Source of the DNA: Ceratodon purpureus
Lineage: Eukaryota; Streptophyta; Bryopsida; Pseudoditrichales; Ditrichaceae
Length of the DNA stretch: 64,000 bases
Reading direction: 5' to 3'
Assembly (NCBI GenBank): GCA_014871385.1
Contig: CM026426.1
Location: 73,212,303 to 73,276,302, forward strand
In this document: piece after piece, positions 35,339-61,284 of the stretch
Layout: the number at the start of each line of letters is the position of its first letter
Position numbering within the stretch: the first letter of the stretch is position 1
Position numbers and translations under genes: made by a program
Notes under the pieces: model-generated
Seen by the model: only the letters and a program-made list of their open reading frames with translations
What the model was told of the DNA's origin: nothing
The model's database searches: none

Positions 35339-36546
35339 GTACGCACCTCAGATCGGAAGCAGGATCTGGACCTCGAGGAAATTGTAGACATGCATGATTT
35401 CGAGGCGGACAATTATGCGGTGGACTTGGCAGCGGTTCGTGAGGACAACACATGGGACTTCCACGGTGCCGGAGGCGATGCAACACAAGAAGCTGGACCA
35501 GGCCGTAGGGAGGGGAGCCCGGACCCCGATGTGCTGCAGCCACAAAGCAGGTCGCTAGGCCACTCCGATGCAACTGGTCCTCTTTCGGGAAGCCTTGGAC
35601 AACATTTCGGTTTAACACGCTACGGGTTGGACGGCCTTACCGATGACAAGACCAAGGACGGGCACGAAGAACCCAGGCCGGAAGAAGAGCGACCTAGGAG
35701 CGATGGAGAAGATTCGCTCAGTTTTAGGACAGAGCCTGGCCAGGACACAGCCGACGACGAGCCGATGTCCAGGAGTTGGAAATCGATGGCACTGTTCTGG
35801 TTGAGAAGGCGAAGAGGCTGTCGTGGCGGAGGGTGGCAGAGAACGTTAGAAAGTGTGTCCAGAACCCACCCCCCGGGCCATTTTCTAGGACAGAGACGGT
35901 GGGAGTCTAAGTAGAATCAGGGAAATGGGAAGCGTCGGGAGACGCAGAAGGTCACCATCCCCTGGGACAGGTTGGAGGACTTCCTTGAGGGTGAGATGTC
36001 CGCCCACCAACATCCATGCACCTTTGTGGAAGAGTCACGTCGTTGCATGAAGAGGGTTGTTAGGAAACAGATCAGAGCTGACTCGGCGATTCAGGAGATC
36101 AGGTACCGCCTGCCCTAAGTCGCTCTGCTGTTTAGGACAGATGTATTCCACAACTGTTTCTGTCCGCTCTGATTTTGTGAATCCCTTCTTCAAGTTTAGG
36201 CCACCAATGAGAATAGGGCAGGATCATCTCACTGTACATGCGTTGTCTATGTCCTGTGTAGCTATTGGTGTCAGTATAGGCCGGTGGACTATAGTCGGCA
36301 ATACAAAAACGAGGTGCAGAAGGTCTTCTCTCATTGCCTTACTTAGAGAACGAACTCCACCAACCAGAGAAAGGCCGTGAAGAAGGCTTAGAAGCTGGTA
36401 GAGAAGGCGGCAAAAGATGCAGAGAAGAAGGCGCGACCTAAGAAAAATGGTAAGACAGAGACTGTTCCTGACCTTAATGTTGAGGCTGTGGATGAGGACG
36501 CAGAAGAGCTTGCAGGCCTACAGGAAGCACAGGAGAAGCTACTGCA
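35339..36546 (+). pseudogene. Left half of a split SWIM/MULE-type transposase gene (outer element)
   Basis: One frame runs from before 35390 (MHDFEADNYAVDLAAV; open upstream to at least 35339, true start unresolved) to 36102. A phase-2 GT-AG intron (36103-36279, acceptor GTATAG) leads to exon 36280-36546. The product is acidic and Gly/Arg-rich at first, then TIPWDRLEDFLEGEM, PCTFVEES and VDYSRQYKNEV, ending in a Lys/Glu-rich EKAAKDAEKK segment and LQEAQEKLL. This resembles the N-terminal region that precedes the transposase core in plant SWIM-domain MULE proteins. In-frame TAG codons lie at 35912, 36344 and 36389; there is no TAA, TGA or frameshift. The frame stops at the insertion point of the 22-kb element and resumes in phase at 58906. 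Confidence 0.65.
36537..36546. repeat. Target-site duplication, left copy
   Basis: AGCTACTGCA directly precedes the left inverted terminus and is identical to 58896-58905. Ten bp fits the 8-11 bp duplications made by Mutator-like transposases. Confidence 0.8.
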
Positions 36547-36606
36547 GGGAAATGCTATTCTGCGAGCGGAGAGCGGTGAGCGGTAACTTTGCAGAAATTT
36601 TGATGT
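36547..36606 (+). repeat. Left terminal inverted repeat
   Basis: Reads GGGAAATGCTATTCTGCGAG at the outer end, then GAGCGG repeats, TAACTTT and ATTTTGATG at about 36598-36606. It forms the counterpart of 58814-58895. Confidence 0.75.
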
Positions 36607-40800: not shown

Positions 40801-43800
40801 TCACATATCCAAAATATCCTCCAATGTACTCAAAGAGCGTACGATTCGGCGCTCTTCTTCGCAGTCTTCTTCGTCTTCAGAGGACGATAAAGTGATAGTG
40901 GATGGCTCTTCTTCGTCTTCTGCCTCCTCTGACTCATCTGCTTCAATATCAACAAACTCCAATGATCTATTTGGTGCATTTTCAGACCTATAGTAACGAT
41001 AAGAACCACGAGCGAGTTCGATAGCAGCATTGTTCGCATAAGATGGAAGATGCCATGATGGTGGAGGGCTAGGGTAGAAATTAGGATCAGAAAAGAAAGG
41101 ACGATGCACAGGATAGCCCATATTATCGCATCTGCAAATGTAAATGGCACATTGTTTATAAATCCACTCCACATTCAATGCGAGTACATAAAACGTAACA
41201 CTAGAGAAAAAGTATCTAAACTCACTTCTGGAATCGAGATCTCTTAAGGATCTTAGCAACGGGAACTTCACCCTCGGGATCATCAACAATGACATGCTCA
41301 GTACTGGTGGCTTGAGGAACTGAGGAAGTCCGAATTAACGGCTGCAACAAAGCCTTGAAAATGTCTTGATCAGCCTCCAAGGCCACGATGTGGCGGTCAA
41401 CGTTGCGGCAAGTGTGGATTGACGGACCTGAAGTACAATCCACTTTACTTTATTAGTGCTACTCCAAAACATTAAACAGTAGGCAAAGTTCTCAGACAGA
41501 AGGTAAAACATTAATTTTAGGCAAACCAAAAACATACCAGTTGCTGCTGTGCAGTCAAACACAACATTCCCGGGATCGGAGCATGCTTCAATCAACATTT
41601 CCATCAGAACCACGGACTTCTCGCGAGGGCCTCTCCATGGCTTCGGACCATTGCACATCTGGTTCTCTGGCAGAACTATATTCTGCAAGCAATCATCACG
41701 ACCCACGTCTACACCGTGACGGCTCAGCAGCTTAGGAACAGGCCGAAAAGCAAACTTTGAAGCAGGAGGTCCGGTCTTCACCAGCAGTGTAATCCCAAAC
41801 CAAAGTGTCTATAATCCAGGAACGAACAACACGCAAGTTAGTACCACATGAGTTCCAGGCTGCAATGTTAGAACTCTGGGTGGGGACAGACCAGAGCAGG
41901 CATGACTATTCCACGAATCCAAATTCCAAATTGCAGGCCATACCAAGTCGTTGCAGAGGCAATGCATGGGCCATAATCTGAAGGAAAAATGCAGTAACAA
42001 ATTCAGAGTCCATTTCATCCCTAGGCCGCGGGCACCCCACGAATGCAAGTTTTAATTCATGGTCATACCATGCCAGGGACGTACACTCTCGCTATGGCAA
42101 GAAGGGGATTGGGATTAAAGAACTGAAGTACTGGTAACAAAGGCCAACTCATCAGATTCGAGGTAAATTGAGACTTAGTTTTCAATGGTTATCAGAAAGA
42201 CTTTATAGGCAATTCGTGACAATCACTAAGAGGTCAGATGATAGTCCAATAAAATGAGGGGATTAATATATTGTATTGAAACTTACGGTAACTGACGGAT
42301 CGAAGGGTGATGTCAGGTGGAGTCGGTTCATTGCCCACCATTCCTTGCGAACTCTGAAATTGAATGCATCGCAGTAACCTAGGATATTTGATTTTGTTGC
42401 TGCATGATACGGATGAAAAAGAATCATGGCTCCGTCATCGTGCAGGTGGTTCTCGGCAAAGTCGAAGGTGTTCTGCCAGAAATCAGTAGAGTCTTCGTTC
42501 CAAGCAGGGATGGATGTAGGTGGGTCTGAAACGCCGGGGACAGGAAGGCCCTCAGGTAGATCTGCAATAATAAGGTCGACAAAGTGATGTTTGACCTGTT
42601 TCCCACTCATGAAGAGGCTTCTCCCATCGGTGACCTGTACAGATATTCAATTTCAAGGAAAGTCAGTGGTATGGTAAAAAGTCAAAACTACGAGCATGAT
42701 TCTAAATAAATCAAGCTGCAAATACCCGCATCACTTCAAAAGGCCAACTCAGATTGCCTGCGGTGTCATGCTCCAGAGTCTGCTCGGGCTAGACCACCAG
42801 GTTACAGGGACAAAATTAAGAGCAAAAACTAGGAGAGAAAGCAAACGAATATCATCTGAACTCGCTGGTCAAGAGGAAGCTGGTGGGCAATTAAATAGCA
42901 AGCTGCTGCAGAGGCCCTTACCTGCCACGACCATGGCATCATGGCACATCATGGGATGCCCATGGCATCATGGCATGAGCAAATTCATCCAAAAATTATA
43001 ACAAGTTCGAAATGCATGTGATCTGGATTACCTTAAGCAGGGTACGCTTGATCTCCAAGTACATGGGAGTGAATTCATTACCACTGCCTGAGAGGACATC
43101 TATGAGGGATGAGTTCAAGATTAACTCGGAATTCTGGCCACACTCCCCAGCATCGTTGAATTCCAGGAGTTGATTGAGCTGATCATATGAAGATCCTCTT
43201 TTTGTACCCCTGGAGTTGGTTTTCTCTTTATGGCCGAAATTGCCAGATGGACTATTCTTATCATCCTGACCAGGGGTGTTGAGTTTCTTCTTGCCCTTTC
43301 TGCCCGACTTTTCCTTTGCTTTCAGCTCCTTCTCCACCTCCTTCTGCTCCGCCCTCTCCTCGGCTTCTCTTACTTTCTGGGCCTTCTTCCGGTCCTCCTC
43401 AATCCTTCTCTTAAGAGCCTTGGCCCGCTCAGTTTCATCCTCTATCCCTTGATGATCGACCATTTCAATACCAGACTCTCCGATGGCATCCCTCGACTTC
43501 CGCAGCTCGATTTCAAAGGATGGTGTAAAACTTGGCACACAGTCCAAGTACCATGCTCCAGCGGTAAGATGAGAAGTTGTCCATGTCCGCTGCTGTGAAG
43601 CTGAGAACATGCATGCTTCATTCGATCTGTCGACCCATGCGGTAAGAAAAACAGGGAGATTCTCTTTTCTGATTGCCTGCTTGGCCAAGAGCTCGTACTT
43701 GAAATATCTGCAAGAATTCCATCACCAGTTTCATGAGCACCGAAACCAGATTCCATTGCAGCAAGTTATGCGTAGCATATTAGACAAGGGCAACATAGAA

Positions 43801-46800
43801 GGGTAACCGAAAGCATGGTAAGCATAGACATCGTGGGCATGGCAGGGTGATTAAAAGCCTAGCACGGTGACAATTTGCATAGCAAATGGAGCCTTTCTGG
43901 TCTTAATGTATCAAGCATATTCAAATAAGCAGACTCGAAAATATTTGAGTTGCGGCACGAATGATTACCATAGAATCCACGCAATTTTAAGGACTGTCAA
44001 TAACAAACCGCTAACCAGTGGGACTTATGAACCTCACGATTGTGCAAACCACTGGAACATAAGGGTACACCTGAATAGAACTCGTCTGACAACGAGATCT
44101 GTTCCCTTGAACTCCCGAAATTCGAGTTGTTTCTGGAAACCTTCGGCTCCTCGGAAGTATGAATTAAAAACGTGGTCCCAGAGCTTCATTCGGCAGTCCT
44201 CCACGTAAGCTACCAGAGTCATCGGCTCAGTGGAGAGTGTCATGTCAATACTGACCTGGTCCTGTCGCACAATCTCCTCAAAATTTGCGGACGCCTGCTC
44301 TGATAGCTGATATGAGCAATTCAAAGAGACAGTAGTTAGCTAGAATCTAGTTATTATATATCCAAGTCAAAACATTTAAAGTGCTAAATGTATAGCAACA
44401 TACCTCTGCCCAGAAAGTTGCCCTCGCAAGCCAGGATGTCAGCCTCTCTTCGTTGACGGGCTTCGGTGGGATCTTCCGGGCCTCACGGGTTGCCGCGGAG
44501 GAGTTGAAGAATTGAAGCCATCTGATCTTAGCCGTGGGGGTAGCCCTTGCCGTGGCTATGAGTTGCAACTTTTCCATGGTAAGCTCTGTATTGGTGGTGT
44601 TAGATGAATAATGCCGCTCCACCTGCAAGTGATCAGGAAAGTTCGTTTGTAAGAATCCAATTGGGAGATTGTTAGAGCGACTGAAAACTCTGCAATATAA
44701 AAGGTGGTTAGTGCTTGACATTCTGTAATTGATGGCTATGATGATCTTCGAGAATGCTATGATGAGATTTATTACACTACCGAAATCTAGTACTTTCAAG
44801 TGCCTGCTGCGAGTCTGCTCGGGCCCATCCCACTGGTAACACTACTGAATTCAATATTCAGGTGAGCCTGCTGGGAGTCTGCTCAGGTCCTTCCACCAGG
44901 TTACACTACCGAGATCACATACCTTCAACTGCCTGCTGCGACTCTACTCGGGCCCTTCCAGCTGGTTACACTACCGAGATCACATACCTTCTAGTGCCTG
45001 CTGCGAGTCTGCTCGGGCCCTTCCCCCTCGTAATACTACCGAGATCACATACCTTCTACTGCCTGCTGCCAGTCTGCTCGGGCCCTTCCTCCTAGTAACA
45101 CTACTGAATTCTAGATTCATTAGAGCTTGCAGAGAGTCTGCTAGGGCCCATCCACCTGGTTACACTACCGAGATCACATACCTCCAAGTGCCAGCTGCGA
45201 GTCTGCTCGGGCCCTTCCATTTGGTTACACTAGCGAGATCACATACCTTCAAGTGCCTGCTGCGAGTCTGCTCGGGCCCTTCCCTCTGGTTACACTATCG
45301 AGATCACATACCTCCAAGTGCCTGCTGCGAGTCTGCTCGGGCCCTTCCAGCTGGTTACACTACCGAGGTCACATACATTCAAGTGCCTGCTGCGAGTCTG
45401 CTCGGGCCCTTCCCCCTGGTTACACTACCGAGGTCACATACCTACAAGTGCCTAATGCGAGTCTGCTAATCTTAGGACTTCCTATGATGACCAACGATAT
45501 GGCTATGATGACCTACGAAGAGGCAATAATGACATTTCAAATGACTATGATTTCCTTCTATATGTTGTGATTTAGAACAGTCCTAGAATCTTTGCATGCC
45601 CGAATGTGCTGGTCCATATGCCTCAGCTAGAATGTCTATGTCCTTAAAAAATATAGAGAGTCCAGTCACCGAGAACCTTCGTAATGAGACTGCTCGGGGC
45701 CAAGCACAGTTGGATTGGGACTATCGCGGACAGAATTCGTCTCTCCCAACATTCATCGATTCGAGATGAAAAACAAACATGTGATAGGAGTGCCCAAGTG
45801 TGCTCGGCCCCGAGCACACTTGCTCCAGCACTGCTAGACACTGCGGAATGAGCACTGACCTGAGGTAGAGGGAAACGCGAGGTATTGATCTGAAAACTCT
45901 CATTCGAAATTAACTATCAACATTGATGTGAACTTTCGACATACGAAGAGACTGAATCACTGGTTTTTTTTAAGCTTAAATGAATGTTTAGAATTAAGGA
46001 AATAATAGTGTTAAGGGATAAGCAACGGATACTTACCTCACGCAGCCACGCTGGTGTTAGTTCAGGGTTCGCAACGGCAAGAAACTTAGTCATTTTAGAG
46101 CAAAGTTTTCGTGTTTCGCTCTTCACCGCGGCCTTCATGGCCCTAATCTTATCAGCTTCTGTGACATCGCCGTCGTTGTGTTCCAAGAACCCTCGAAGAC
46201 CATCATCAGCGGCACGGCTTATCTCATGCTGCAATACCAATCCAATTCCCACAGGGGCAAATACCAACTTAATGTCAAATACGAACTTAGTCAGACAAGG
46301 TTCTTTAAAGCCAAGCTACCAATGATCCAATGATGCTACGATAGAGATTTAGCATAGTCTGCGATGGACATAGATAGATGATGCTGAATAATGCTACATA
46401 GACCAGGGCAGACCATGATGATCATCCACTGCTGATGCCCCATGGCATTCGACTAGGACAGCCTGCGTGTGGTTTTTGGGGACATTCGAGATTATTGAAA
46501 TCATTAGCGAGTGAACCATGCAGAAAAATTAAATAACAATGAAAGGGGATCATGAAAATGTACCTGGAAAATGAAACTCGTGAACACGTTCACAGGCAAG
46601 GTTTGCCAAGTACTGTGCTTTGTTTTCTTGCACCTCTTCAAATCAATACTTGACAAAATATCAGTGAATTGCTCCAGTGGCATGAGGCCGTACTTCTGTA
46701 CCCTGAAGAGGGTGTGAACTGGATTGGTCTTAACATGAGCATCCTCCGTGTTCCTGTCACGCAAAATATCAGAACAGGAATCAAATTATAGAATGGTTTC

Positions 46801-49800
46801 TAAAACTGCTGAGTGTATTGAAGGTGCTATAGTTTAAGGGTGCAACTCACTTGTTGATGTTGTGCATCACCTGCATTACTAGGCCAATTCTACCTCTAGT
46901 TTCCAAGAGAATAGAATCAACCGAGTAGTGCCATGACTCATCCGTCTTGTGCAGGCGCTCAATGTGGTTCCACCAGGCCTGGTACCGATGGTTACCGTCG
47001 CAAACAAAAAACATCAGATTGGTAAGGGAAGCCAACTCGGGAATGGAGAGAAGGTAGTTGTTGAGTTCATCGTTTTTCTTCTCCCAAATTGGTCCCCACT
47101 TGGCCTTGTCAGTATCAGAAATCTCCCGGGTTCTCCCCTCCTCGTCAGTGGTTGACAAGTAGAATACCGAGGCACCCTCGCGATAGCCATGCACAAATTC
47201 CTGCTCAAGTCTGGATAGGTCACTCTGTAACGTAGGCCGCACCATCGGCATTGCAACCATACGGCAAAGAGGAACTTCAAATCTTGATGCATAATGTGTC
47301 TGCATTCGGAGCTCAGCAATTGTCGAAACAGAATTTAGCTTCTGGCGGTTCCGAATTTCGTCCTCATTCCCCACAAATGTATCACCAGTTGAGTCCGCTT
47401 CTCCATCTGAATCTCCATCTTGACCGTCAGATTTTTGGGTCAGGGCCAGTGGGGACTCATCCTGATTGCCTCCTACTTCAGGTTGGTGCTCCTGTAATCT
47501 CAAGCAATACCACATTAGAAAGGCGAATGCTAAATTCGAATTTTACGAGAGAACGCAGACCAGCAGGTGCAAAGTTCTGATCAGAGTTATGAATGATCAA
47601 AGTTCTTCGATACATGGTTGAAGACAGAGCACAATAGTTGCCAAACGAAGAAAGAGTAATATCCAATATGAATAAGTATTGATCAATAGCCCTTGCTTCA
47701 ATTTAAACTCATTATACGGCCTGAATTAAAAAACAATGTACCTAATTCTCAACAGAACTTCGCAGCCATCACAGGAAGCAGAAGAATTAGTACACTATGT
47801 CACACCTCACTATCCTCTGTGAGTCGATGAATTCAAGTAAATAAAAAAGAAATTTATCATGCTCGGCCCAAACCAAATGTCAATGACCACCTGAACGACA
47901 TCAAATAAGTCCAAACAACGCTACTGCAAGCAAGCTAGGAGACAAGCAGACCATCAGCACATGTCTCTAAGCTTTGTGTCTTTCCTGCTAGGACTCTGCC
48001 TCGGCCCTTGCACCTTGCTCCACCAAGTCAATGCAATTGATTGACCACCCTCCTGCGAGTCTGCTCACTTGGTTAAACTACATCGATTTAGTTCTAAGAT
48101 GAGCCAGGTGCGACTCTGCTCGGGCCCTACCAGCTGGTTACACTACCGAGATCACATACCTTCTAGTGCTTGCTGCGAGTCTGCTCGGGCCCTTCCACCT
48201 GGTTACACTACCGAGATCACATGCCTTCAAGTGCCTGCTGCAAGTCTGCTCGGGCCCTTCCCCCTGGTAATACTACCGAATTCTAAATTCATTAGAGCCT
48301 ACTGCGAGTCTGCTCGGGCCCTTCCAGCTGGTTACACTACCGAGATCACATACCTTCTAGTGCTTGCTGTGAGTCTGCTCGGGCCCTTCCACCTGGTTAC
48401 ACTACCGAGATCACATGCCTTCAAGTGCCTGCTGCAAGTCTGCTCGGGCCCTTCCCCCTGGTAATACAACCGAATTCTAAATTCATTAGAGCCTACTGCG
48501 AGTCTGCTCGGGCCCTTCCAGCTGGTTACACTACCGAGATCACATACCTTCTAGTGCTTGCTGTGAGTCTGCTCGGGCCCATCCACCTGGTTACACTACC
48601 GAGATCACATACCTCCAAGTGCCTGCTGCGAGACTGCTCGGGCCCGGTTACCTGGTTACACTACGTCATTCCAATATGTTTTTCGAGAAATACCAAGTAA
48701 TAAGCTCAATATATGAACATATCCGGGCCGAGTTGACTTCTGAACCAACAAATGAACTGTGGATTTACGTAATCATGATAGTAAAAAGTATAAAAATGAA
48801 TATGTTCGTCTGGGAGATCTACTTCTATCATTTTTTACACTTGATTTTGTTATTTGTTTCAATACTGCGAGTCTGCTCGGGCCCTACCCCATGGTTACAC
48901 TACCGAGATCACATACCTTCTAGTGCCTGCAGAGAGTCTGCTCGGGCCCTACCTCCTGGTTGCACTACCGAGATGACATACCCTCAAGTACCTGCTGCAA
49001 GTCTGCTCGGGCCCTTCCACCTAGTTACACTACAGAGATCACATAACATCAAGTGCCTTCTGCGAGTCTGCTCGGGCCCTCCCCCCTGGAAACACTACTG
49101 ATTACTACATTCTTTTTGCCTGCAGAGAGTCTGCTCGGGCCCTTCCACCTGGTTACACTACCGAGGTCACATACCCCTAAGTGCCTGCTGCAAGTCTGCT
49201 CGGGCCCTTCCCCCTGGTAATACTACCGAATTCTAAATTCAATAGAGCCTACTGCGAGTCTGCTCGGGCCCTTCCAGCTGGTTACACTACCGAGATCACA
49301 TACCTTCTAGTGCTTGCTGTGAGTCTGCTCGGGCCCTTCCACCTGGTTACACTACCGAGATCACATGCCTTCAAGTTCCTGCTGCAAGTCTGCTCGGGCC
49401 CTTCCCCCTGGTAATACAACCGAATTCTAAATTCATTAGAGCCTACTGCGAGTCTGCTCGGGCCCTTCCACCTGGTTACACTACCGAGATCACATACCTT
49501 CTAGTGCTTGCTGTGAGTCTGCTCGGGCCCTTCCAGCTGGTTACACTACCGAGATCACATGCCTTCAAGTGCCTGCTGCAAGTCTGCTCGAGCCCTTCCC
49601 CCTGGTAATACTATGGAATTCTTAGTTGAGAAGAGCCTGCAGCGAGTCTGCTCGGGCCCTTGCCCCTGGCAACACTAGCGAATTCTAAATTGAGAAGAGC
49701 CTGCAGAGAGTCTGCTCGGGCCCTTCCACCTGGTTACACTACCGAGATCACATATCTTCAAGTGCCTGCTGCGAGTCTGCCAATCTTTGGCTATGATGAC

Positions 49801-51410
49801 CTACGATATGGCTATGATGACCTACGAAGAGGCAATAATGACATTTCAAATGGCTGTGATTTCCTGTTATGCTGTGATTTAGAGCAATACTAGAATCTTC
49901 AAATGCCCGAATGTGATGGTCCATATGCCTTAGCAATAAGACCGTACTAACTTGACTTCATCCAGTTGAACCGAAATACACGAAGACCTTGACAGAAATA
50001 AATAATAGGGCCACATGGGAACCCGACCAGAAGTGACGTTATAGTACCTCATCGTAAGTTCTTGAAGAGCTTGCTGCGAGTCTGCTCGGGCCATTCTACC
50101 TGGTAATACTACCGAATTCTAAATTCACAAGAGCCTGCTGTGAGTCTACTCAGGCCGATTCTCCTCGTTATACTACCGAATTCAAGTACCTTCGAGTGTG
50201 GGCTGCGAGTCTGCTCGGGCCCTTTCATGAAAATTAGCATTCAGATTTGTATCCAAGTAGAGTAGGGTAGAATGATCGCAATTCATCCTAGGCTTGGACA
50301 GAGAAACAAAGTCATATAATGCAGATCAAGAACCCCACAAGTGGTAGCTCACTGGCACATGTACAGCCCATGATAACCACTCTGTTCCTCTCCGACCACA
50401 CCGAATCCCTATCTCATTTTCTAGTACTGCGCTTGTGAAGAATACCCACTCGACCACCTGTAACCATCGCATGATGGGTTCTATCTATACATGATCAAGG
50501 AGCCCCGTGGAGAGAAAGCAGCAAATAAATCCCTGCTGGTCACATTACCTGGTCTCCATCGACTTCGATCTCTTCACGTCTTGCGCTTGAGGCGGCTAAT
50601 TCCACCATCCTTTGAGATGGCTCAAGGCAGAAGGAATGCGAATCCGACTTCTGAAGCTGGGGTCGACAACGCCTCTGTTGAACTTGCAAAGCCCCTTCCT
50701 GCGAAGCCCCTTCCTGCGAATCCCCTTCCTGCGAATCCACTTCCTGCGAATCCCCTTCCTGCGAAACAATTCCACTAGCTTAGAACAGGTTTGGTGATTG
50801 CATTTTCAGAGCTAACACTTTGCAGATCTTGCAGGGGGTGGATGCCTCGAGGCCAAGCATTACCTAGTGAACCAGGGTTTCAAAGGACAGCCTCCATGGG
50901 CTCATCTGCCTTGTGTACCGACTGCCTAAGGTCCAGTTGCCCTAAATGATGTTATTAAAGTACTACGTACTGGTTTATTACTCTTGAGTCTACTCGGAAT
51001 AAAATGCATGTAGTGACTGGAATATGGGCAGCGGTTATCATTCTAGCTAAGAGGTCTCTTTTTAACGTGAACTAGTAATTAATGAATAATGTATGAAATC
51101 AACTACGTGACTGGAATGTGAACTACATATCAACATAACTTACCTTCGTAGTCTCTATTAAAGTTGAACAACCGCCGTCGGCAAGAAACTGAAGTTTCTT
51201 TGGCTGGACCTCGGCTTCAGCAAACGCATCCCCGTCACCCCCTTCTCCCCGAGTAACAACCTTACTAGAGTTTCCTCCCTTCCTCCCCATGGTTGAACGC
51301 AAATTGTATGGAGTAGTTATGCCGTCTCTAAGCGCTAACTTCTGTAACCTCTCTAGACGTCGCTCTCTTCTAGATTCTAGCTTAGCTTTTGCACCCGATC
51401 TGGTTATCAT
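40801..51410 (-). CDS. ParB/Srx-like plus N4/N6 amino-methyltransferase-like protein, 12 exons
   Basis: Exons: 51410-51144, 50758-50549, 47491-46851, 46753-46564, 46228-46037, 44622-44404, 44306-44071, 43707-43032, 42634-42287, 41808-41538, 41427-41226, 41131-40801. All eleven introns are GT-AG with compatible phases, giving 1260 residues without a stop. Residues 1-45 are basic. Residues 90-114 hold SQEG repeats. Residues about 232-335 resemble the ParB/sulfiredoxin fold, ending in the hallmark VCDGNHRYQAW (ParB: DGxxRxxA). Residues about 740-793 are a Lys/Glu coiled coil. Residues about 890-1115 resemble a permuted (beta-type) amino-methyltransferase: VDLIIADLPEG at the DPPY motif-IV position, then GPREKSVVLMEMLIEACSDP and NVVFDCTAATG (SAM motif I), then RHIVALEADQDIF. 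The acidic C-terminus is SSSEDEEDCEEE. DPPY is altered to DLPE, so catalysis is uncertain. Such domain pairs are known from phages and mobile elements of bacteria. Domain calls are by eye. Confidence 0.7.
42765..42812. repeat. Single degenerate minisatellite unit in intron 8
   Basis: CAGAGTCTGCTCGGGCTAGA ... CCAGGTTACAG is one decayed unit of the 64-bp repeat that fills introns 2 and 5. Nearby (42930-42975) CATGGCATCATGGCA is repeated several times. Confidence 0.7.
44817..45470. repeat. About 64-bp minisatellite in intron 5 (about 11 units)
   Basis: Unit: GAGTCTGCTCGGGCCCTTCC, then NCCTGGTTACACTACCGAG, then ATCACATACCTTCAAGTGCC, then TGCTGC. The + strand frames with repeated Leu/Gly/Pro/Ser are products of the repeat, not genes. 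The array ends at about 45470 and runs into a 160-bp unique block also found at 49780-49940. Confidence 0.9.
45471..45640. repeat. Duplicated non-repeat block (copy 1)
   Basis: GGCTATGATGACCTACGAAG and the following 120 bp recur at 49790-49940. Intron 5 and intron 2 of the same gene therefore share array plus flank in the same order and orientation, pointing to one intron's content having been copied into the other. Confidence 0.8.
45796..45821. repeat. 26-bp near-perfect palindrome around CTCGG
   Basis: The arms AAGTGTGCTCGG (45796-45807) and CCGAGCACACTT (45810-45821) are exact complements around a 2-bp centre. A weaker relative (ACTGCTCGGGGCCAAGCACA) lies near 45690. Both lie in intron 5. 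Confidence 0.85.
48057..50220. repeat. About 64-bp minisatellite in intron 2 (about 25-28 units, with higher-order structure)
   Basis: Same unit as in intron 5. Three unit types (TTCTAGTGCTTGCTGTGAG; TTCAAGTGCCTGCTGCAAG; AATTCTAAATTCATTAGAGC) recur in order, giving a higher-order period of about 193 bp at 48170-48640 and 49190-49600. A 200-bp unrelated segment interrupts the array at about 48670-48865. Three outlying units lie at 50070-50220. Confidence 0.9.
49780..49940. repeat. Duplicated non-repeat block (copy 2)
   Basis: Counterpart of 45471-45640, at the end of the intron-2 array. It ends with CCCGAATGTGATGGTCCATATGCC. Confidence 0.8.
50686..50763 (-). repeat. 15-bp tandem repeat creating five in-frame 3' splice sites
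   Basis: Five copies of GCGAATCCCCTTCCT (plus strand) place the minus-strand acceptor TTCGCAG/GAAGG at AG positions 50760-50759, 50745-50744, 50730-50729, 50715-50714 and 50700-50699. All are in the same phase at the start of exon 2. Use of any site changes the protein only by five-residue steps (SQEG-type repeats). Confidence 0.7.
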
Positions 51411-51725: not shown

Positions 51726-51733
51726 TATATAAG
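51726..51733 (+). promoter_or_regulatory. TATA-box candidate TATATAAG
   Basis: It lies 3-10 bp before the first ATG of the next ORF. If it is a functional TATA box, transcription would start about 30 bp downstream, leaving the ATG at 51736 outside the mRNA and making the ATG at 51793 the first usable start. Confidence 0.4.
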
Positions 51734-51735
51734 AC

Positions 51736-52245
51736 ATGCGAACGCCACATTCAGTATCGGACTTCTCACATGATTTTTTCACTCCTGACGTAATGGACTC
51801 GCATCAGTCCCGTACTCCTTCAATTCCGGTTACACAGCAGGAGAGAGAGGATAGCTTGTCCTTAGTAAATTTTGACGGGCCTTTTGAACCAATTCAGGAT
51901 TCCAAGACTTTGCTTGATTGCAGCCAGAGCAAGGCACCGATCATACAGTCGGATGTGATGACTTTGGACGCAAAGGCGTGTGATCGGTCGTTGCCAGCAG
52001 CCACTGTTGAAGTTCAAGAGTCCAAGGGCAATTCTAGTAATGCTTCCCATGCCTACGCAAATGTCGGGGTCATCAAGCCTGGAACATATTCCAGACTTCT
52101 TTTAAGAAGTATCCCTCGGCCCAAAGGGCGTAAGCTACAGAGTAGAGGATGCCGAGCAGTTCATAGCACAGAAGAACGAGAAGAAGATAGTAATAATGAT
52201 TCCGTTGCCGCTCAGAGACCTATGAAACGCAGTCGTCAATTTTGA
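51736..52245 (+). CDS. Small Ser/Gln-rich ORF, possible accessory protein of the element
   Basis: A 169-codon frame; the TATA position favours M20 (MDSHQSRTPS) as start, giving 150 residues. The product is Ser/Gln/Asp-rich with a basic tail (RPKGRKLQSRG, RPMKRSRQF) that could be a nuclear localisation signal. The segment GVIKPGTYSRLLLRSI resembles GTFWILKPGKYRVYGV in the transposase exon just downstream (52880-52925). The two may share a domain, or this may be a duplicated first part of that gene. No known family is recognised. Confidence 0.45.
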   Translation: MRTPHSVSDFSHDFFTPDVMDSHQSRTPSIPVTQQEREDSLSLVNFDGPFEPIQDSKTLLDCSQSKAPIIQSDVMTLDAKACDRSLPAATVEVQESKGNSSNASHAYANVGVIKPGTYSRLLLRSIPRPKGRKLQSRGCRAVHSTEEREEDSNNDSVAAQRPMKRSRQF

Positions 52246-52653
52246 TATAGGTCCCAGGAGTCGCGTTTATTGGTTACATCTAGCCCATTATGAATTGAAT
52301 GGTTCCAATGTAACACTGAACTATTTCCGTCGATTTTTCAGGATAATATTTTAGGAAGTTGTTGTGATTAAGTCATGACAGTCGTATCCCAGCTTCTAGA
52401 TTAATTCTGCTGATTAGGGCGGGTACGTGTACTAATTCCTATGTAATAAATTACAGTTGCCAAACTAAGTACGTACAAAGCGTCTCATTAAGATTACAAT
52501 GCTAAAGCATGCAAATTCGGGTTCCTTCCTATTCCACCACTCGTAGATATGCACTCGATGATTGAATTTGGCGTCATACTTAACCATGGGAGAATTCTTA
52601 TGCGTCTTCACCTCTTTGTTTTTTATTCCTCTTTAGAGTTCTCATTGTTGCAG

Positions 52654-55600
52654 GTGCCCCTTAATCTGAACACGATGGCCTATCTTTGTGCGGATTCGCA
52701 TTCCGTTCCTATTACCTTTCCTCTAGGTGTAGATGGCCGCGCTATGATCAGTTCCACCACTCTGAGTCTTTGATTTCGGTTTCGTGAGGAATCACTGCAT
52801 GTAGAAGAGGAGTTCTTTGACGATATCACCGGTGCTCTCTCGCATGCCGTTGGTCAGTTGTCAACTCAGAATGAGATTGGAACGTTCTGGATTCTCAAAC
52901 CTGGAAAGTATAGAGTTTACGGAGTTACTGAGTCTCTAGTAGCTGCTTCTACTGAATTGCTTACTCCCCGATCGTCCACAACAGTGTGCCTTGAGTCTGA
53001 GCCGTTGTTGAGGAAGGTCAAGACCGAGCCAATTCTTCAGACCATCTATGAGCTCAGTGATGGCTCCGATGGTGAAAACGCAGACGAGATTCCGGTGACC
53101 CATGAGAGCATGGAGAAGAGTCTGCCAGTTGCAAATGATAATCTTGAGGAGGTGGTTGTCCCTGTGGAGTCCTCGGTTCCTTCTAGTGTTGCAGATGATA
53201 ATTGTGAGGAGGTGGTTGTCCCAACGAAGTCGTCGGTTCCATCTACTGTTGCAGTCTCCCCTTCAGAAAGTGTTGTTCAATGCATCATGAAGCTTAGCGC
53301 TCGTAAGAGGTCAAAGAGTGTTCTGTCGCGCATCAATTTTAATGCAATTAGAATGCAGGAAGTTCAATACCTTCCACCTCAGTACAACGGCGATGTCATT
53401 TTCGAGTTCCCACCCCTAGGTGCTCACGGTCATCATTCCGCTGCAAAGCAGCTACGGGGAATGGATAGAAAATACGATGGACACCCTTGGACTCGCACAG
53501 TGACTTCAAATATTCAGAACGACCTCAAGTTGGTCTTCCGTTCTTCGTCGTGCCTTGGCCATCTCCGTTGTGACAATGTCAAATGTGAGTATCTAACACG
53601 TGGAAACAGGACTTCGGTAGTGAACGAGACTGAATGGGATGGGATATCTGAGAGACTGTTTAAAGTTGGATCTAACCCGCCGCAGAGTTCTAGTGTGGTC
53701 TGTAAGTCTTGCAATACACCACCGACCTGCGTTGCACTTTGCCCTGCAAGGATATACTACGTCAGTGCTGGACCTCACATGACGAGAGCATGCGTTCATC
53801 TGGGAACTCATGACCATCCAGTGAAGTCCGGCGAGAACCGCGATTTTGTCGAACACACGGAGAACTTGATCAGGGAGCAGGTGGAGCGTACTCCATCCGC
53901 CACCAATTCCGCCATCGTCCTCGAAACTGCGAAGGAGCTGCTGGGCCCATTACTTCTGGCCAAGGAAGGTGAACCGCAGAAGATTCTAGAATTGGAGGAG
54001 CTCGAACCAATCTTCGACCGCTGTAAGCACCTTTCTTCCCCAAACATCAGAAATTGCATTACCTCGTTCAAGGCTGTTAGACGCTTTGGGACCATGGACA
54101 GCATCAGAATGCTGCGAGGCTTCAGCAACTGGAAATTTATCCAAAACAACTTGTTTCCAGGGCAAGGCGATGATGCTGCGAAGGTGTATGTCTTCAAGAT
54201 GTCTGAGGTAGGGCCGGGTAGTGTAGTCGATTTAGTTAAGCGTATGCAGACTGGCGGTGACTTGGAGAATGCGTGGATCATGTTTGACCACGTGAGGCGA
54301 GTCAGGGATTGGGTTACGATGGCTTGCCACGTCTATGACCCCACCTATTGTCGGATAATGACAATCGCAGCGTGCGATATGCAGTCGGAGGACACTGCTG
54401 CCCAGTCCGTCCTCTGGAAGAATCTGAATGCTATCATGCAGACTCACGGGGTCGAGAGAGTTAACTTTAAGGGCTTCATGGTGGATGGTGCCCAAGCGAA
54501 CTTCAATGCAGTTCGCATTATCTATGGAAGCGGTAACGCCTCCGAGATGATGATTGATAGGGAGAGGACATGCCTATTCCATCCTATTCCATTGGAGGCA
54601 GTCTCTAGAGCAACATACAAAGGCTCACATTCGTCCGGACCTCCGAGCGCAGCACATCAAACTCTGCCAGCAGTACAAGAACGCCACGACTATGGCGGAA
54701 GCTGAAACAATGTTCTTGGCAATCCGAGCATGGTGGATGTCATCCGGCGCTGCAACAGAAAAAGGGCTCTCAGATCTGGAAACGTGGCTTTCGTTCTGGC
54801 ACTACCGGTATCGCCAATGGGGAGGTTTCATGGAATTGGTAATTAAACCCTATCCTTTAAATCTCTGTCGCATCTGAAGTTTGGTGCCCTACAGTTAGGT
54901 ATTGGACACTCAGATATCTAACCTAACCTCTACTGTGTGCAGAATCAGAGCAAAGATGAGCTCGCAGAGATGCCGTCCTGCAACCTTGCTGAATCAATCC
55001 ACAACCGGTGGAAGCAGCAGTCCGGAGATCGTGGTAGCGACTTGTATGCTGCAGCTGTGGACGACTTTGTAAGGGCCTTCATGCAATGCGTTGCCTACTT
55101 CCAGTTCTTGAAGGGGGAGCGTCCCGGGAAAGGTCCGTCCAAAGAGGAGCTGAAGCTCCGACGTGCACAAAGATCTGCAGCAAGGACAGGAAACCCGAAA
55201 GTCCTTCACGAAGCGATTATGAACATGCCAGGAGCGGACGAATGGTGCACCAGGGACCCGCATCTTGAAGGGGAAGAGGTCTGTGTCTCTCTAAAACAAA
55301 AACCTGATGTTGCCTTTGGAGATGAACGGGAGTCTCATAGGCCAGACAAGATCAGCGTGTCAAGACCTCGTGTCCAAACTAGAGCTGCACGCTAGGAGAG
55401 CGACTATCCTCCGACGGTGGTAATAACGGACTCTCCTACAAGCAGCGAAGAGGACCAAGCCGACCTTCAACCTGACCATAGTCCACCTCGAGTGGACTAC
55501 CATCACGTCACTTCAGTTGAGGAGACCGCCTGCAACCCTTCTGAGTGGCACATTGCACGACTTCCTAAGACATCCGCCAAGGCGTGCTTCGCCCAACATG

Positions 55601-56394
55601 CTGTGACTAAGAAGAAATGCGTGGTACGGATCGTGCAGCACGGGAAGAGCACTGCGGCGCCGACATACACGGGCCCCATGAAGAACTACAGGAAAGACAG
55701 AATAGAGACTCATCAGTTCTTTTTCTGCAATGACGACATTGACAGGTGCGTCAAGGGTAGCAAATGGAAGTGGGTCCTATCGGTGCCAAAGGTACCTGAG
55801 GTGTGGCTTGTGAAACTTGGGACAAAGTTGACGAAGAAAGAGATACTTTCTCTAGAAAATGCCGGGTTCAGACTCCCGCAGCAGAAGGAGATGTCACCGA
55901 GAAGACTCTTTCAAGACCGGGCAGCGGCAGTGGACTTCTCGGCCTACCCTACGCCGGCATACCCGGACGAGTTCCCTACCCGGCGATCAAGAAAGCTCAT
56001 CCGACGGAACAAGAAGGCTCCGTCGACCAAGCACAGCAATAATTGTGCCTCCGCCTTATCGTTGCAAGCGAAGGTGAGCAAGTTGTGCATGCTGCCTGCC
56101 CCAGCCCTCGGATGCATCGTCACATTGGATTCTGGGAAGCCTCCAAAGGTACAGCAATATTACCTGACCATATCGCAACACCCTGCCTGCACTTGCCCGA
56201 ATTTCAAGGAGATGGCAATTACGGCACTTGGGAAGCAGGGTCAATGGGCTAATTGTAAGCATTTGTATTACCTATTCAGTGTAGTCTGCGGTCTTGAATT
56301 AGAGTCGGATACTTTCATTCATGCAGCTAGTTTTAGCTTCAACAAAGTGAAGCGAGTCCTGGTGGGTGGCCTTCTGAAATTCTTGGAGACCTAG
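52654..56394 (+). pseudogene. SWIM-domain Mutator-like transposase of the nested element (broken)
   Basis: Exon 52654-54838 (acceptor GTTGCAG), intron 54839-54942 and exon 54943-56394 are all in phase 0. Three acidic residues fit a DDE core: D at 54286 (IMFDHVRRV), D at 54484 (GFMVDGAQANFNAVR) and E at 54991 (NLAESIHNRW). TLDSGKP...YLTISQHPACTCPN...ANCKHLYYLF is a canonical SWIM zinc finger (C 56188, C 56194, C 56254, H 56260). Lesions: TGA at 52771 before the core, a frameshift from a 10-bp tandem duplication at 54573-54592, and TAG at 55393 between the catalytic core and the SWIM region. The remainder is well conserved, so inactivation looks recent. It presumably once mobilised the 22-kb element. 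Confidence 0.8.
54573..54592 (+). repeat. 10-bp tandem duplication causing a frameshift
   Basis: CCTATTCCAT occurs twice back to back. With one copy the frame runs on through CLFHW into QSLEQHTK; with two it shifts by one base and ends at 54705. Confidence 0.85.
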
Positions 56395-56604: not shown

Positions 56605-56950
56605 GGAGTCACGTAAGTGTGCTCGGGACCGAGCAAACCTTTTTCAGTGTTTAGGAGGGGGTCATGTAAGTGTGTTCGGGACCGAGCAAACATTTTTCAG
56701 GGTTTAGGAAGGGGTCACGTAAGTGTGCTCGGGACTGAGCAAACGTTCTCCAGGGTTAAGGAGGGGATCACGTAAGTGTCCTCGAGAGCGTGCAAACCTT
56801 TTTCATGGTTTAGGAGGGGGTCACGTAAGTGTGTTCGGGACCGAGCAAACGTTTTCCAGGGTTTAGGAGTGGGTCACGTAAGTGTGTTCGGGACTGAGCA
56901 AACGTTTTCCAGGGTTTAGGAGTGGGTCACATAAGTGCTTGGGCATTCCC
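56605..56950. repeat. 53-bp minisatellite, about 6 copies
   Basis: Unit: GGGTCACGTAAGTGTGCTCG, then GGACCGAGCAAACNTTTTCC, then AGGGTTTAGGAG. Each carries the short dyad TGCTCGGGACCGAGCA, related to the CTGCTCGGGCCC core of the intron minisatellites and to the 45796 palindrome. Confidence 0.9.
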
Positions 56951-57244: not shown

Positions 57245-58309
57245 TCATAATTCGTTGTGTACCAGTTTTGGGCGCTTGCTTGGATTTTCATCGTCCACAT
57301 CGGCTGTTGAGTGACGGTCCTCGACATCAGCTACTGCCTCACGACGTCCAATCCAATCAAATTGTTTCACCCACTTAGGACCGTTCTGGTGACAGGTTCT
57401 GGTATCCAGGAAAATACCATTGTCATTTGCTTTCCAAGCGCAATCAATATACAACATGGGCTGATTGGGGTCATCAGGTGGTATCCATAGGAACACGTCA
57501 TTGCGGGATTTCCTTGTTGCTATTAGAATGAAGTTGCATATCCATTTTGTAATAAAATGTGGATGTGTAGCTCTTCTTAAGATAACTCCTGTGGTACGTT
57601 CATTCTCAGATTCTCTCTGAAGACGGGATGGCAGTGTTCTGACTGTCGTTGCACCATTTACTGGCCCGTAAACCAGCATCAATTCTTGGTCGAGGTCATT
57701 AAGTATTGAAACAAAGTAGTCGCCAAGTCTATCAATCAATCCCCAGGTGTATGGATTTCTCCCGAACTGGCCCTTCTTCAGGAAGTGCTTACTACCTCGA
57801 GGAGGACTGAATTGAGAGACATATACTCCATCGGCCTGAATTCTCCAACGACATTGAGGTTCCTCAGTATGCGGCCATTCATCATATATCGGACAATCAT
57901 CGTCCGAGTATCCTGCCATTTTGTTTCGCTTGCTCAGCACTTTTGGATTTTCATAAACGCAGACAGGTTCAACAATATAGGATTCCACGCAATTCCAACT
58001 CCTGGTTTTGTATGTAAATCTGCAGAACAGATTGTTTGTGAACATTTCCAAATTCATACGTTGTTGAAGCGGAGAACCAAGAAGAGCTACCGAATTCGGA
58101 CTAAGATTTTTAGAGAAACTGTATTCCATTCTAACTAGTCCATCGGCGTCTTTCTTTTCGGCACAATTCACTATAACCGGATGAGGAGATGCGTTTTGAA
58201 TCTGAAGGGGACTATGTGTATTCGGTCGCGAAGCATGTACGCAATAAAAATCTAAGAACATTAAAAAAATCAGAGAACAAAGTTGATTCTTAGTGACCTG
58301 GTTTCGCAT
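57245..58309 (-). CDS. Secreted protein with two S-protein-homologue (S1-like) domains
   Basis: An intact 354-codon frame. Residues 1-26 form a signal peptide (KNQLCSLIFLMFLDFYCVHA). Domain 1 (about 34-168): LQIQNASPHPVIVNCAEK, LFCRFTYKTRSWNC, CRWRIQADGVYVSQF. Domain 2 (about 198-320): FVSILNDLDQELMLVYG, WICNFILIATR, DCAWKANDNGIFLD. Both show the S1-family pattern of an opening strand, a central Cys-bearing strand and a closing C-W-K/R-x3-DG-hydrophobic motif. The usual Cys of the first strand is Tyr in domain 2. Family members are normally single-domain secreted peptides; the best known act in pollen-pistil recognition in poppy, while most have unknown roles. The tail is charged (DDENPSKRPK). 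The gene lies inside the right end of the 22-kb element. Its decayed homologue at 243-1250 shows that the double-domain form is stable. Confidence 0.75.
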   Translation of the reverse strand: MRNQVTKNQLCSLIFLMFLDFYCVHASRPNTHSPLQIQNASPHPVIVNCAEKKDADGLVRMEYSFSKNLSPNSVALLGSPLQQRMNLEMFTNNLFCRFTYKTRSWNCVESYIVEPVCVYENPKVLSKRNKMAGYSDDDCPIYDEWPHTEEPQCRWRIQADGVYVSQFSPPRGSKHFLKKGQFGRNPYTWGLIDRLGDYFVSILNDLDQELMLVYGPVNGATTVRTLPSRLQRESENERTTGVILRRATHPHFITKWICNFILIATRKSRNDVFLWIPPDDPNQPMLYIDCAWKANDNGIFLDTRTCHQNGPKWVKQFDWIGRREAVADVEDRHSTADVDDENPSKRPKLVHNEL

Positions 58310-58813
58310 ATCTACAAATGGGCGAGAACTATGTATTCAACTGAAGTTTCATACATAGTTCATTACGATGTATTCAACTCAAATTCAAGCAGTCATTCAC
58401 TCGGTTGAATCTAGGCAAGAAGTGATCAATAAATGAAGTTCGATGTTTTGAATCGTCAGAGGCATTTGAGGAGGTGACCCGTTGAAAGGTTCTTGACATA
58501 TGAAAGGTCACTTTAGCATGTTTAGAAAGGCACAAATTCCCAACTGTCATAAAAGAGTGATACATTCTGCACTTCGGACCAATGTTTGCAAAATAAGTAC
58601 CGACCGAACAGTTCTTATGACAGCATTCCACGAGTATTGGCCCGTACTGTCCACTGACCCTAACACCAAGATTTCCACGGTCATAGATCTACGTCCTCTA
58701 GTAATTTCACTGAAATTGTCCACGGCCATAGGTCACATTCCGAACTATATTTAGAATTTTCAAAAAGCAAAATAATGTTACTCCATAAAATACCGTAATC
58801 TTACCGCTCTAAT
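58310..58813. other. Subterminal spacer at the right end of the element
   Basis: No gene. At about 58788-58813 a second copy of the terminal subunit occurs (minus strand GAGCGGTAAGATTACGGTAT), an inner repeat of GAGCGGTAACTTTTCGGATA in the terminus. Confidence 0.5.
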
Positions 58814-58895
58814 TCACATTTTCATCAAAATATCCGAAAAGTTACCGCTCTCCGCTCTTCGCTCACCGCTCACCGCTCGCACTTTAGCGACGTCC
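58814..58895 (-). repeat. Right terminal inverted repeat
   Basis: Reverse complement of the left terminus (36547-36606). Read inward: GGACGTCGCTAAAGTGCGAG, then CGG/TGAGCGG repeats, then GAGCGGTAACTTTTCGG and ATTTTGATG. Confidence 0.75.
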
Positions 58896-58905
58896 AGCTA
58901 CTGCA
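58896..58905. repeat. Target-site duplication, right copy
   Basis: AGCTACTGCA, identical to 36537-36546. It is in the same codon phase (CTA CTG CA) as the left copy. Confidence 0.8.
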
Positions 58906-61284
58906 AGTGCAGGCCTTAATTGAGGCAGCCTCAAAGCCGAAGAGAAGGACCCGGATGAGCAAGGTCTAGGGTGGGATGTCAATCAAACGCGGCTGCTAGT
59001 GCAATTTCGTTGCAAAACAGCTACAGTGTAACGAAAACCTTTGTACTATTCAATTCCACTGCATGACGCATACTAACCGAGAAGAGAAGGAGTGTCATGG
59101 AGCACAGTTCGGAGGACACAGAGCTGGCCTATCAGGGCATTTGTCAGCAGCCACGAAGAAGTGGATAGCAGACACCTTAAGGTCAGGCAAGTCGCCTGTC
59201 CAGGTCATGGCCGAGCACAAGGCAGCAGTAATGCGATGTGCGCAATATAACCTGCTAGCCACGAGGGACACATTCATTATGCCGTCGGACGTGTACAACA
59301 TCGCCAATAAGCTTGCCAAAGAACTGTGGGAAAAGCATCCGTCCGTTGCGATGAGTGTCTGTATGTGGACAGACGAGAATGTAGACTGTCACTATCACTA
59401 CCGTGAGTATGGGACTGTAGAGCTCAATGAGCCGCCGCCTCCTGAAGATGACCCATTCTGTCTAGCCATCCAGACAGAATGGCAACTGGAGATGGTGGTC
59501 AGACATGGCCACAGGAGGGCTCTGTCCATGGATGCGACATTCTCCACCAACGCTCACAAGGTGTGCACAGGGCCACACACCTTCCATTATGTCCAGATAA
59601 ACCACTGTTTTCTGTGTGTGCGTTGTATTTCTTGTCCTAATGTCTCTGATAATATTTTCTCTGTCCTCTGCTGCAGTATCCACTGTATACAGTGATGGTT
59701 TTCGACAAATGGGAGCAGGGAATACCTGTTGCCATCACTATCTAGGGTAGGTCACGAGAAGTAGACATCGTCCCGTGGCTCACCAAGTTGCGGGATCGTT
59801 GCATAGCTGTGAAGCCTGATTGGAGGCCAAACTCCTTCATGGTTGACAATGACCAGGCCGAACTTAATGCAATCAGGTGAGGGCACTTAGTGTAATATCT
59901 TTATGACACCAGCAGTTTTCTGGTCAGAATGTTGTTGAAACATCTTGCTTCCATGTGAACCCGCAGGAAGGTTTGGCCTGAGGCTGATGCTGTTGAGGGC
60001 AAAACAAAGGACGACGTTAAGATCCTGCTCTGTTTGTGGCATACACGCAAGGCGTGGCTGGAGAATGCGACTCAGAAGATCAAGGCAAACTATCTTAGGA
60101 CAAAGATTCTTTCTGCCTATGCTGACCTAATGTATGGAAACGGTATCCTTCAGGGAGAGCTTGCTGTGAAGGCTGCGCCGGAGCGTTTCAACTTCCTGAA
60201 GGCTAAGTATCCACAGGCAAAGGCCTTCTCCCAGTACTTCGAAACCACCTGGATTCCGAAGCTGGAAATGTAGGTCAAGGGTTTCCGCAACATCCCCCAC
60301 TGCAATCAGCACACCAACGCTGCAGTTGAAAGTTACCATGCGAATTTGAAGGCCATTCTGAGGTATTCTAGGCAGAAGTTTGACGGCCGTCGTGTGGATT
60401 GGCTGATTTACCATCTGTACAGGGATGTCCTAATTCACTACTGGTATGCCGTCCAATGTAAGTTGTACGAGTTTATCAAGAACGGAAAAGCAGAGGGGAT
60501 TGTGGCCAATGCAGTCATAAGGGCTGCTCAGATCCCAGACGAGCATGTCTCTATCTGCCTGGAGCAGGACGTGGCCTTTGTTGCGTCCCCGATTAACTTC
60601 CCAGCGATTTGGGTGGTGACTAGCCCAAACTCGGACTGGGCTCACTATAACTGCTTGTTGGGCATGCGAGCTAACATTTGTAAGCATGTGGTGAAGGTGT
60701 TTAGGATGATAAACACAGAGGTCCACCCTGGCGACATCATACGGTAGGCTGGGACCTTGAGGGATACGATTCAGGCTGGCTGCAGCACTGCTGGACTAGA
60801 ACTGGGAGACGGGACAGGCAAAGCAGCAATCCAGGACATCAGAGGGGATGTCCTAAAATCAGACGATCCTGAGAAGACATACCTCGAGATGAAGGGGTTT
60901 CTCGGGGAAGCGGATACTCTAGCGCTTGAGAATGTAGGTCTCCAGCAGCATTTTCTGGCTATCCAGGCTGAGGCTACGGGAAAGATGGCTGCACTGAAGG
61001 TCAAATCCGAGGCAGGCTTGCTGCACCATCTCTCCCAGCCGTCCTTCAAGGTTAATGCAGGGCCGAAGAACCTGCGGCGGTTCAAAGCATGCTCGGAACT
61101 AGAGACTAAGAAGAGGGCTGCCGGCCGGCGCAGGAAATGGGATTGGAACATAGGACTATTAGGACAGATGATTATAAGGATAGAGGAGTATTTTTTCAGG
61201 ATTGTCTACAGGATAAAAAGGGTATGTAGGTACCGTATATTTTGTATACTGGAACTGTTATTTTTACAACTGTTTTGTAAGTAG
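58906..61284 (+). pseudogene. Right half of the split SWIM/MULE-type transposase (outer element)
   Basis: The frame continues from 36546 through KPKRRTRMSKV and the Cys-bearing IKRGC-CNF / CHG segment to a donor at 59560 (HK/GTGTGC). Exon 59677-59876 and exon 59967-61284 follow with coherent phases. DDE residues: D at 59531 (SMDATFSTNAHK), D at 59845 (FMVDNDQAELNAIR) and E at 60328 (HTNAAVESYH). The SWIM region (WAHYNCLLGM...NICKHVVKVF) has Tyr where the first Cys should be. In-frame TAG codons lie at 58967, 58997, 59743, 60271 and 60745; there is no TAA, TGA or frameshift before the final TAG at 61282. Together with the left half this gives eight TAG codons in one otherwise open gene. At 60271 the context (KLEM-VKGF) suggests TGG was lost. 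Confidence 0.75.

Follow-up and report, generated by a model that had tools for sequence, protein, structure and literature searches.

Fusions of a ParB-like domain to a DNA methyltransferase have been described in bacteria and in algae. In Bacillus cereus, Bce_0392 joins a ParB-like domain to an adenine methylase (PMC5512222), and in the brown alga Ectocarpus the 21.5-kb transposon Sola1-1_Ec32 carries, opposite its transposase, a gene for a 1104-amino acid (aa) protein with a ParB and an N4/N6 methyltransferase domain; green and red algal cases are cited in the same 2025 report (PMC12477816). The accessory protein VANC of the Arabidopsis VANDAL transposons, which are Mutator-like elements (MULEs), binds a short motif, and tandem repetition spreads this motif through the introns and other non-coding parts of these elements (PMC5735166). 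Here, we describe a gene of the moss Ceratodon purpureus, located on the minus strand at positions 51410–40801 of a 64,000-nucleotide stretch of contig CM026426.1 (hereafter the window), whose predicted product combines a ParB/sulfiredoxin (Srx)-like segment with a methyltransferase-like segment. It is an accessory gene of a 22,349-bp transposon, its product is under purifying selection, and we consider the chances roughly even that this product is an element-specific DNA-binding regulator.

The likeness to Sola1-1_Ec32, as far as the published description extends, lies in the similar size of the giant transposon, in the large two-domain protein (1104 versus 1278 aa, the ParB half of the moss protein being counted with reserve) and in the position of the gene opposite the transposase. 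The two differ in host (brown alga versus moss), and the moss transposase-like gene is not assigned to Sola and its element has a 10-bp target duplication. The initial annotation of the moss gene had held the pairing to be familiar from phages and bacterial mobile elements and not from plant nuclear genes; as a feature of prokaryotic elements only, that view is overtaken by the brown-algal transposon (PMC12477816). Bce_0392 shares the domain fusion, whereas it is bacterial and lies outside eukaryotic transposons; it was compared by description only, as were the algal proteins, and the altered motif IV and the iterated palindromes treated below are features described for the moss element. With VANC/VANDAL, the moss element has in common an accessory gene and tandem arrays of a short motif in that gene's own introns, varying between subfamilies. 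This is a likeness of arrangement, VANC being described neither as a ParB nor as a methyltransferase protein in the sections of PMC5735166 drawn on here. Among the papers listed in searches of a mostly open-access literature, none showed, in its title or abstract opening, a transposon-borne ParB-methyltransferase from moss or any other land plant.

The transposon and its accessory gene

Comparison with six further copies in the same genome delimits a complete DNA transposon of 22,349 bp at positions 36547–58895 of the window. The sequences of the genome that carry compared copies or matches are referred to as C1, C5, C7, C8, C9, C11 and C13; homology to other copies starts at 36547 (C9, C7, C11 and C8) and stops at 58895 (C1, C9, C11 and C8). 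The end sequences, GGGAAATGCTATTCTGCGAGCGG.. on the left and, on the complement, GGACGTCGCTAAAGTGCGAGCGG.. on the right, are inverted repeats, the left terminal repeat with its GAGCGG iterations occupying 36547–36605 (plus strand) and the right one 58823–58895 (minus strand). They are enclosed by a target-site duplication, AGCTACTGCA, at 36537–36546 and 58896–58905. The copies on C9, C11 and C8 are flanked by 10-bp duplications of their own, and the duplication measures 10 bp in all four copies with both ends read. These limits, repeats and duplications support the suggestion that the gene belongs to a transposon. The accessory gene stands in opposite, divergent orientation to a transposase-like gene at 52774–56394 (plus strand) and to the small open reading frame (ORF) of 170 aa that precedes it at 51733–52245 (plus strand; 170, 155 and 186 aa in the C11, C9 and C8 copies), the two together spanning 51733–56394. 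The transposase-like gene is broken into several frames in the window copy; in the C9 copy it comprises two long frames (740 and 490 codons) and in the C11 copy frames of 791 and 410 codons.

MULE target duplications measure 8–11 bp (PMC6446971), a range that includes the 10 bp found here, and the element has terminal inverted repeats as well. The MULE transposase domain was not detected by Pfam: a scan of the transposase-like frames matched no transposase family, with DUF1248 appearing only at E 0.18, and the superfamily assignment is therefore provisional. By eye only, the transposase-like protein displays a SWIM-like C-x-C ... C-x-H pattern together with D, D and E-like residues. We provisionally regard the element as a giant, MULE-like DNA transposon of moss.

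The initial annotation had recognized an intact multi-exon gene, and the exons are indeed present and join into an open frame, although they number 13 and encode 1278 codons plus a stop, instead of 12 exons and 1260 residues; the difference is accounted for by an 18-codon, in-frame exon 9 (42779–42726) that the earlier count did not include. All 12 introns are GT-AG. On the minus strand, exons 1 (51410–51144) and 2 (50758–50549) are followed by the ParB/Srx-like segment in exon 3 (47491–46851), which contains the DGNHR box, and its continuation in exon 4 (46753–46564). A middle region with no domain assigned (43032–46228) comprises exons 5 (46228–46037), 6 (44622–44404), 7 (44306–44071) and 8 (43707–43032). 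Methyltransferase motif IV, in which DLPE replaces DPPY/DLPY, lies in exon 10 (42634–42287), the motif X helix and motif I (FDCTAATG) lie in exons 11 (41808–41538) and 12 (41427–41226), together 41226–41808, and exon 13 (41131–40801) encodes an acidic C-terminus. The peptide motifs singled out by the initial annotation (VCDGNHRYQAW, DLPE, PREKSVVLMEMLIEACSDPG, FDCTAATG and RHIVALEADQDIF) are all found in the spliced product.

This predicted exon model is supported by the other copies. In a comparison that covered exons 3–13, a counterpart was found for each of exons 3–8 and 10–13, and exon 9 has one in five of the six other copies read. The matched parts of exons 3–12 are stop-free in eight other gene copies, the sole stop counted across these being the terminal one in exon 13; copy A_C1 gave only partial matches for exons 6, 7 and 13, and copies B_nested and E_div are without some exons. 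Genome-wide, the ParB-like segment has 162 protein matches (best 140 candidates scored) and the methyltransferase part 155 (best 125 candidates scored), where one place may yield several exon matches, and these numbers put the gene far beyond chance. The transposase-like domain is found in at least 150 places (best 150 candidates scored), and element copies are spread over many chromosomes. Among the 41 listed ParB-exon hits on C1–C4, out of the 162 ParB-like matches, 30 are paired with a divergent transposase-like match at a distance of up to 25 kb, 1 with a match in another arrangement and 10 with none. A stop is present in 6 of 30 distinct ParB-like sequences, and lineages of the gene extend down to about 29–47% identity per exon.

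Purifying selection acts on the ParB-like, middle and methyltransferase segments. With codons aligned to a stop or gap excluded, the ratio of non-synonymous to synonymous divergence (dN/dS) between the window and C9 copies is 0.101 in the ParB-like segment (276 codons), 0.134 in the middle region (440 codons) and 0.160 in the methyltransferase segment (271 codons), and that between the window copy and a nested copy on C5 is 0.081 in the middle region and 0.145 in the methyltransferase segment. For copies further apart, dS has mostly reached saturation.

The methyltransferase-like and ParB-like parts

Profile searches place the C-terminal part among the permuted N6/N4 amino-methyltransferases of the beta class (PF01555), in agreement with the initial annotation. 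PF01555 matches the window member at E 2.5e-5 (25.7 bits, just under the curated cut-off of 26.7) and is matched in five of five lineage members, at best with 2.9e-10. A profile search of the Protein Data Bank (PDB) with this part retrieves the beta-class N6-adenine methyltransferases DpnA (5.5e-8) and CcrM (3.3e-6, positions 16–228 of 241), phage DNA methyltransferases match as well, and the motif order is likewise permuted (IV ... X, I). The moss protein differs from CcrM and DpnA in that its motif IV reads DxPE versus the DPPY type, its motif I is altered, and its methyltransferase part is joined to the ParB-like segment and a long middle region.

The catalytic motif IV of such enzymes has the consensus (D/S)xP(Y/F/W), and in known enzymes the aromatic residue stacks on the flipped base. 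The window protein reads DLPE and so departs from this consensus. The moss proteins have D-x-P-E throughout the alignment, apart from the C11 copy with Lys instead of Glu, whereas the aligned enzymes of a Lactobacillus phage, an Enterococcus plasmid and a Ruegeria phage have DLPF, DLPY and DPPY. At the codon level, the pattern A-D-x-P-x-x-L-P-V-P, which samples only proteins with the LPVP context, occurs at 300 + 307 sites of the genome versus 0 in a reversed control. Glu occupies the aromatic position at 559 of these 607 sites (279 + 280; 92%), Lys at 19, Tyr or Phe at 1 and other residues at 28 (Trp not counted apart). A Glu held at 92% of sites looks like conservation, not decay, and since it replaces the catalytic aromatic residue, classical N6-methyladenine (6mA) or N4-methylcytosine (4mC) activity is doubtful; the proposal that the protein is a source of these marks is accordingly weakened. 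Motif I, which in this class binds S-adenosylmethionine and contains GxG, reads DCTAATG or DCTTSTG, with DWNAGTG in a single divergent lineage (C7); the first Gly of motif I is Ala or Ser in the aligned lineages other than C7. The Asp and Pro of motif IV and the Asp and last Gly of motif I are invariant in the five lineages aligned.

Relatives of the phage and plasmid type are distant. In six of seven records inspected, the match falls in a gene annotated as a single methyltransferase of 717–810 bp, too short for a ParB fusion of the moss type, and the seventh is unannotated. A search of viral contigs with the methyltransferase alignment found no relatives. In exon 11, the window copy has Trp in the residues TLWFG at a position held by Arg or Lys in five other aligned copies, possibly a recent private change.

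The N-terminal part contains a GxHR-type box as seen in ParB/sulfiredoxin proteins. Over 17 aligned relatives, the Asp of the DGNHR box is invariant, its Gly, Asn and His are nearly invariant, and Arg is present in 14 of the 17. Behind it stands an HN box, an order shared with the YbdM family (DGNHR/DGFHR box, then HN box); the likeness is limited in that the profile alignment with this family (hhalign) covers the first box only (13 columns, p 0.039, negative control 0.35). Weak DUF1015 matches were obtained in 9 of the 17 relatives (best E 0.059), that in the window member lying over the box. From the DGNHR box and the order of elements, the ParB/Srx assignment is likely but unproven.

Palindromic motif arrays and the proposed role of the protein

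The element has short motifs of its own. CCGAGCARAC occurs 35 times in the window, always within the element, versus 0.21 in window shuffles. It forms 65-bp tandem arrays with the CCGAGCAGAC motif in intron 5 (44772–45467) and intron 2 (48109–49780) of the accessory gene and, towards the right end, a 53-bp array (56608–56937) with CTCGG-GA-CCGAG palindromes, one exact and three with one mismatch. From these, a half-site CCGAGC and a palindromic core CTCGG-NN-CCGAG may be read. A palindrome with 13-nt arms around CTCGG-CC-CCGAG is located in intron 5 (45795–45822) and recurs in the C11 copy, with variants in the C9 copy, and the C8 copy has 61 palindrome sites, mostly with CCTCGG-NN-CCGAGG arms and different flanks. 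Four copies contain 2, 2, 5 and 61 palindromes versus shuffle means of 0.005–0.025. The spacer is always 2 nt in the copies read, spacers of 0, 1 and 3–7 nt being absent from every stretch tested. Genome-wide, the C8-type palindrome is found 1109 + 1146 times versus 0 in the control, and the window type at 144 sites versus 1. A listed ParB or methyltransferase match lies no more than 25 kb from 42 of the 50 window-type sites listed; of the other eight, six lie within 2.5 kb of a transposase-like match and two near none listed. By analogy with VANC/VANDAL, CTCGG-NN-CCGAG is a candidate self-recognition site of the element.

A regulator that reads DNA seems to us more likely than a classical methyltransferase, because a selected accessory protein together with intron arrays that vary between subfamilies resembles VANC/VANDAL. 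The ParB-like half, which may bind nucleotide, and the methyltransferase-like half would act on CCGAGC half-sites and CTCGG-NN-CCGAG palindromes placed in introns of the protein's own gene and near the right end of the element. The methyltransferase fold would then serve binding (of DNA and perhaps of S-adenosylmethionine) or a non-standard reaction instead of ordinary 6mA or 4mC formation, and the protein would, in a VANC-like manner, keep the element expressed or mark copies for transposition. We infer both the step from motif to binding and that from binding to anti-silencing. The protein may thus recognize or protect the element instead of performing the usual DNA methylation. More tentatively, and with appreciably less confidence, the element may possess a self-recognition system built from bacterial parts, in which a ParB-like clamp and an altered methyltransferase fold with its retained Glu would read a palindromic operator that subfamilies have multiplied in their introns, a bacterial-type counterpart of VANC of independent origin.

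A number of observations weigh against the regulator as proposed. Its ParB-like half is not confirmed by profiles or structure: PF02195 has 0 matches in the whole genome and none in the 17 relatives, neither Pfam nor PHROGs (a database) gives a ParB match for the window segment or for two divergent relatives, and the PDB profile search yields only weak unrelated matches at E 0.27 and up. An AlphaFold model from the alignment of 17 is poor (pLDDT, the model confidence score, 52.9), and Foldseek with this model finds nothing at E 0.001. The ParB/Srx reading of the initial annotation thus retains the box and the order of elements, and neither a PF02195 search nor structure prediction, which it had named as checks, upholds it, in contrast to the PF01555 search. 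In a combined alignment with phage ParB proteins the N-terminal half was misaligned, and to fold this alignment would also have been circular. Three phage ParB rows were excluded from comparison, L125 and L133 with stop codons and L115, dropped with L125, without a reported fault. Peptide patterns applied to viral and prokaryotic contigs found no relatives of the ParB-like alignment. Exact palindromes number just two in the window copy, and no palindrome was found in the diverged C7 copy or the nested C5 copy, each partly read. Common descent may account for the palindromes of the window, C11 and C9 copies, only the C8 type differing in its flanks. The genome-wide motif counts track element copy number and are not independent, and they single out no binding protein among the proteins of the element. 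Outside the motif-IV sampling, 32 further PF01555 matches lie elsewhere in the genome, perhaps further methyltransferase lineages in which a canonical catalytic motif is possible. Between near-identical copies, dN/dS ratios in the methyltransferase segment are 0.71, 1.06, 1.23 and 0.42 on very few changes and give no clear sign of constraint on the youngest copies.

Several other roles were weighed. An amino-methyltransferase that is active and places 6mA or 4mC on the element itself, with the ParB part providing sequence specificity, as proposed for the algal elements, would account for the PF01555, CcrM and DpnA matches with permuted motif order, for the purifying selection on this segment, for the invariant motif IV and motif I residues and for the DWNAGTG retained in C7; with Glu at 559 of 607 sites, Tyr or Phe at only one, and the first Gly of motif I replaced in the other lineages, we regard it as unlikely, though a genuine contender. 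It is improbable, too, that the protein is a transposition helper whose ParB-like part nicks or clamps element DNA, the palindromes being sites where a transposition complex assembles. The divergent transposase-like neighbours of 30 out of 41 ParB-exon hits and the nicking nuclease activity of some ParB-like domains, for example the ParB-methylase of B. cereus (PMC5512222), speak for such a helper, but the motif arrays are mostly intronic, not at the element ends, and no catalytic nicking residues were identified.

MULEs often carry captured genes, and the window copy has a broken transposase-like gene, so that a passenger without function for the element might be considered; the presence of the gene in lineages down to about 29–47% identity per exon and the dN/dS values disfavour this and make it very improbable. 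That a domesticated host gene stands beside the transposon by chance, as the intact frame next to a broken transposase-like gene might suggest, is close to negligible: the gene is multi-copy, and we rejected this reading because terminal inverted repeats and a single target duplication enclose the gene. The element-specific DNA-binding regulator is the reading we retain.

Further features of the locus and implications

A third gene of the element, an ORF of 363 aa at 57245–58336 (minus strand), is weakly similar to the plant S1 self-incompatibility proteins (PF05938, E 0.0023, under its cut-off). ORFs lie on either side of the insertion, at 59000–60747 (plus strand) and in the left flank before 36546; those on the right are transposase-like by eye, with no Pfam match, and the insertion site may lie within another transposon. 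At about position 10742257 of C5 (position 22434 of B_C5), the left end of a similar element disrupts another copy's transposase-like gene. In L059 (C13:2087650-2088400), a ParB-like exon runs into sequence like the GAGCGG iterations of the terminal repeats, a join that is perhaps the insertion of a related element. Two strongly diverged lineages of the accessory gene, L040 (1–3600) and L037 (100–1735), which retain 47% and 39% identity across the ParB-like part, lie beside compared copies. A palindrome array with a spacing of ∼322 bp is located at C1:9887942-9891163, with no listed ParB-like hit nearby. The PF01555 matches above cut-off elsewhere in the genome include C8:9595672-9596436, C1:5958254-5958736 and C5:15306119-15306592 besides 29 others, and one of the 32 spans nearly the whole domain.

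The C. purpureus genome is reported at ∼360 Mb, and its U and V sex chromosomes each exceed 100 Mb (PMC8000587). The window sits on a contig of 110,524,308 bases in an assembly totalling 362,488,568 bases, and its location may be a sex chromosome.

The present locus extends the transposon-borne ParB-methyltransferase accessory proteins, the ParB half with the reserve given above, to a moss. Selection has maintained the protein within a large family, and 92% of the sampled sites carry an altered catalytic motif. The standing guess, that such proteins methylate their own element, thereby gains a testable alternative, namely that they read it, for which the candidate operator CTCGG-NN-CCGAG directly supplies the target of a binding assay.

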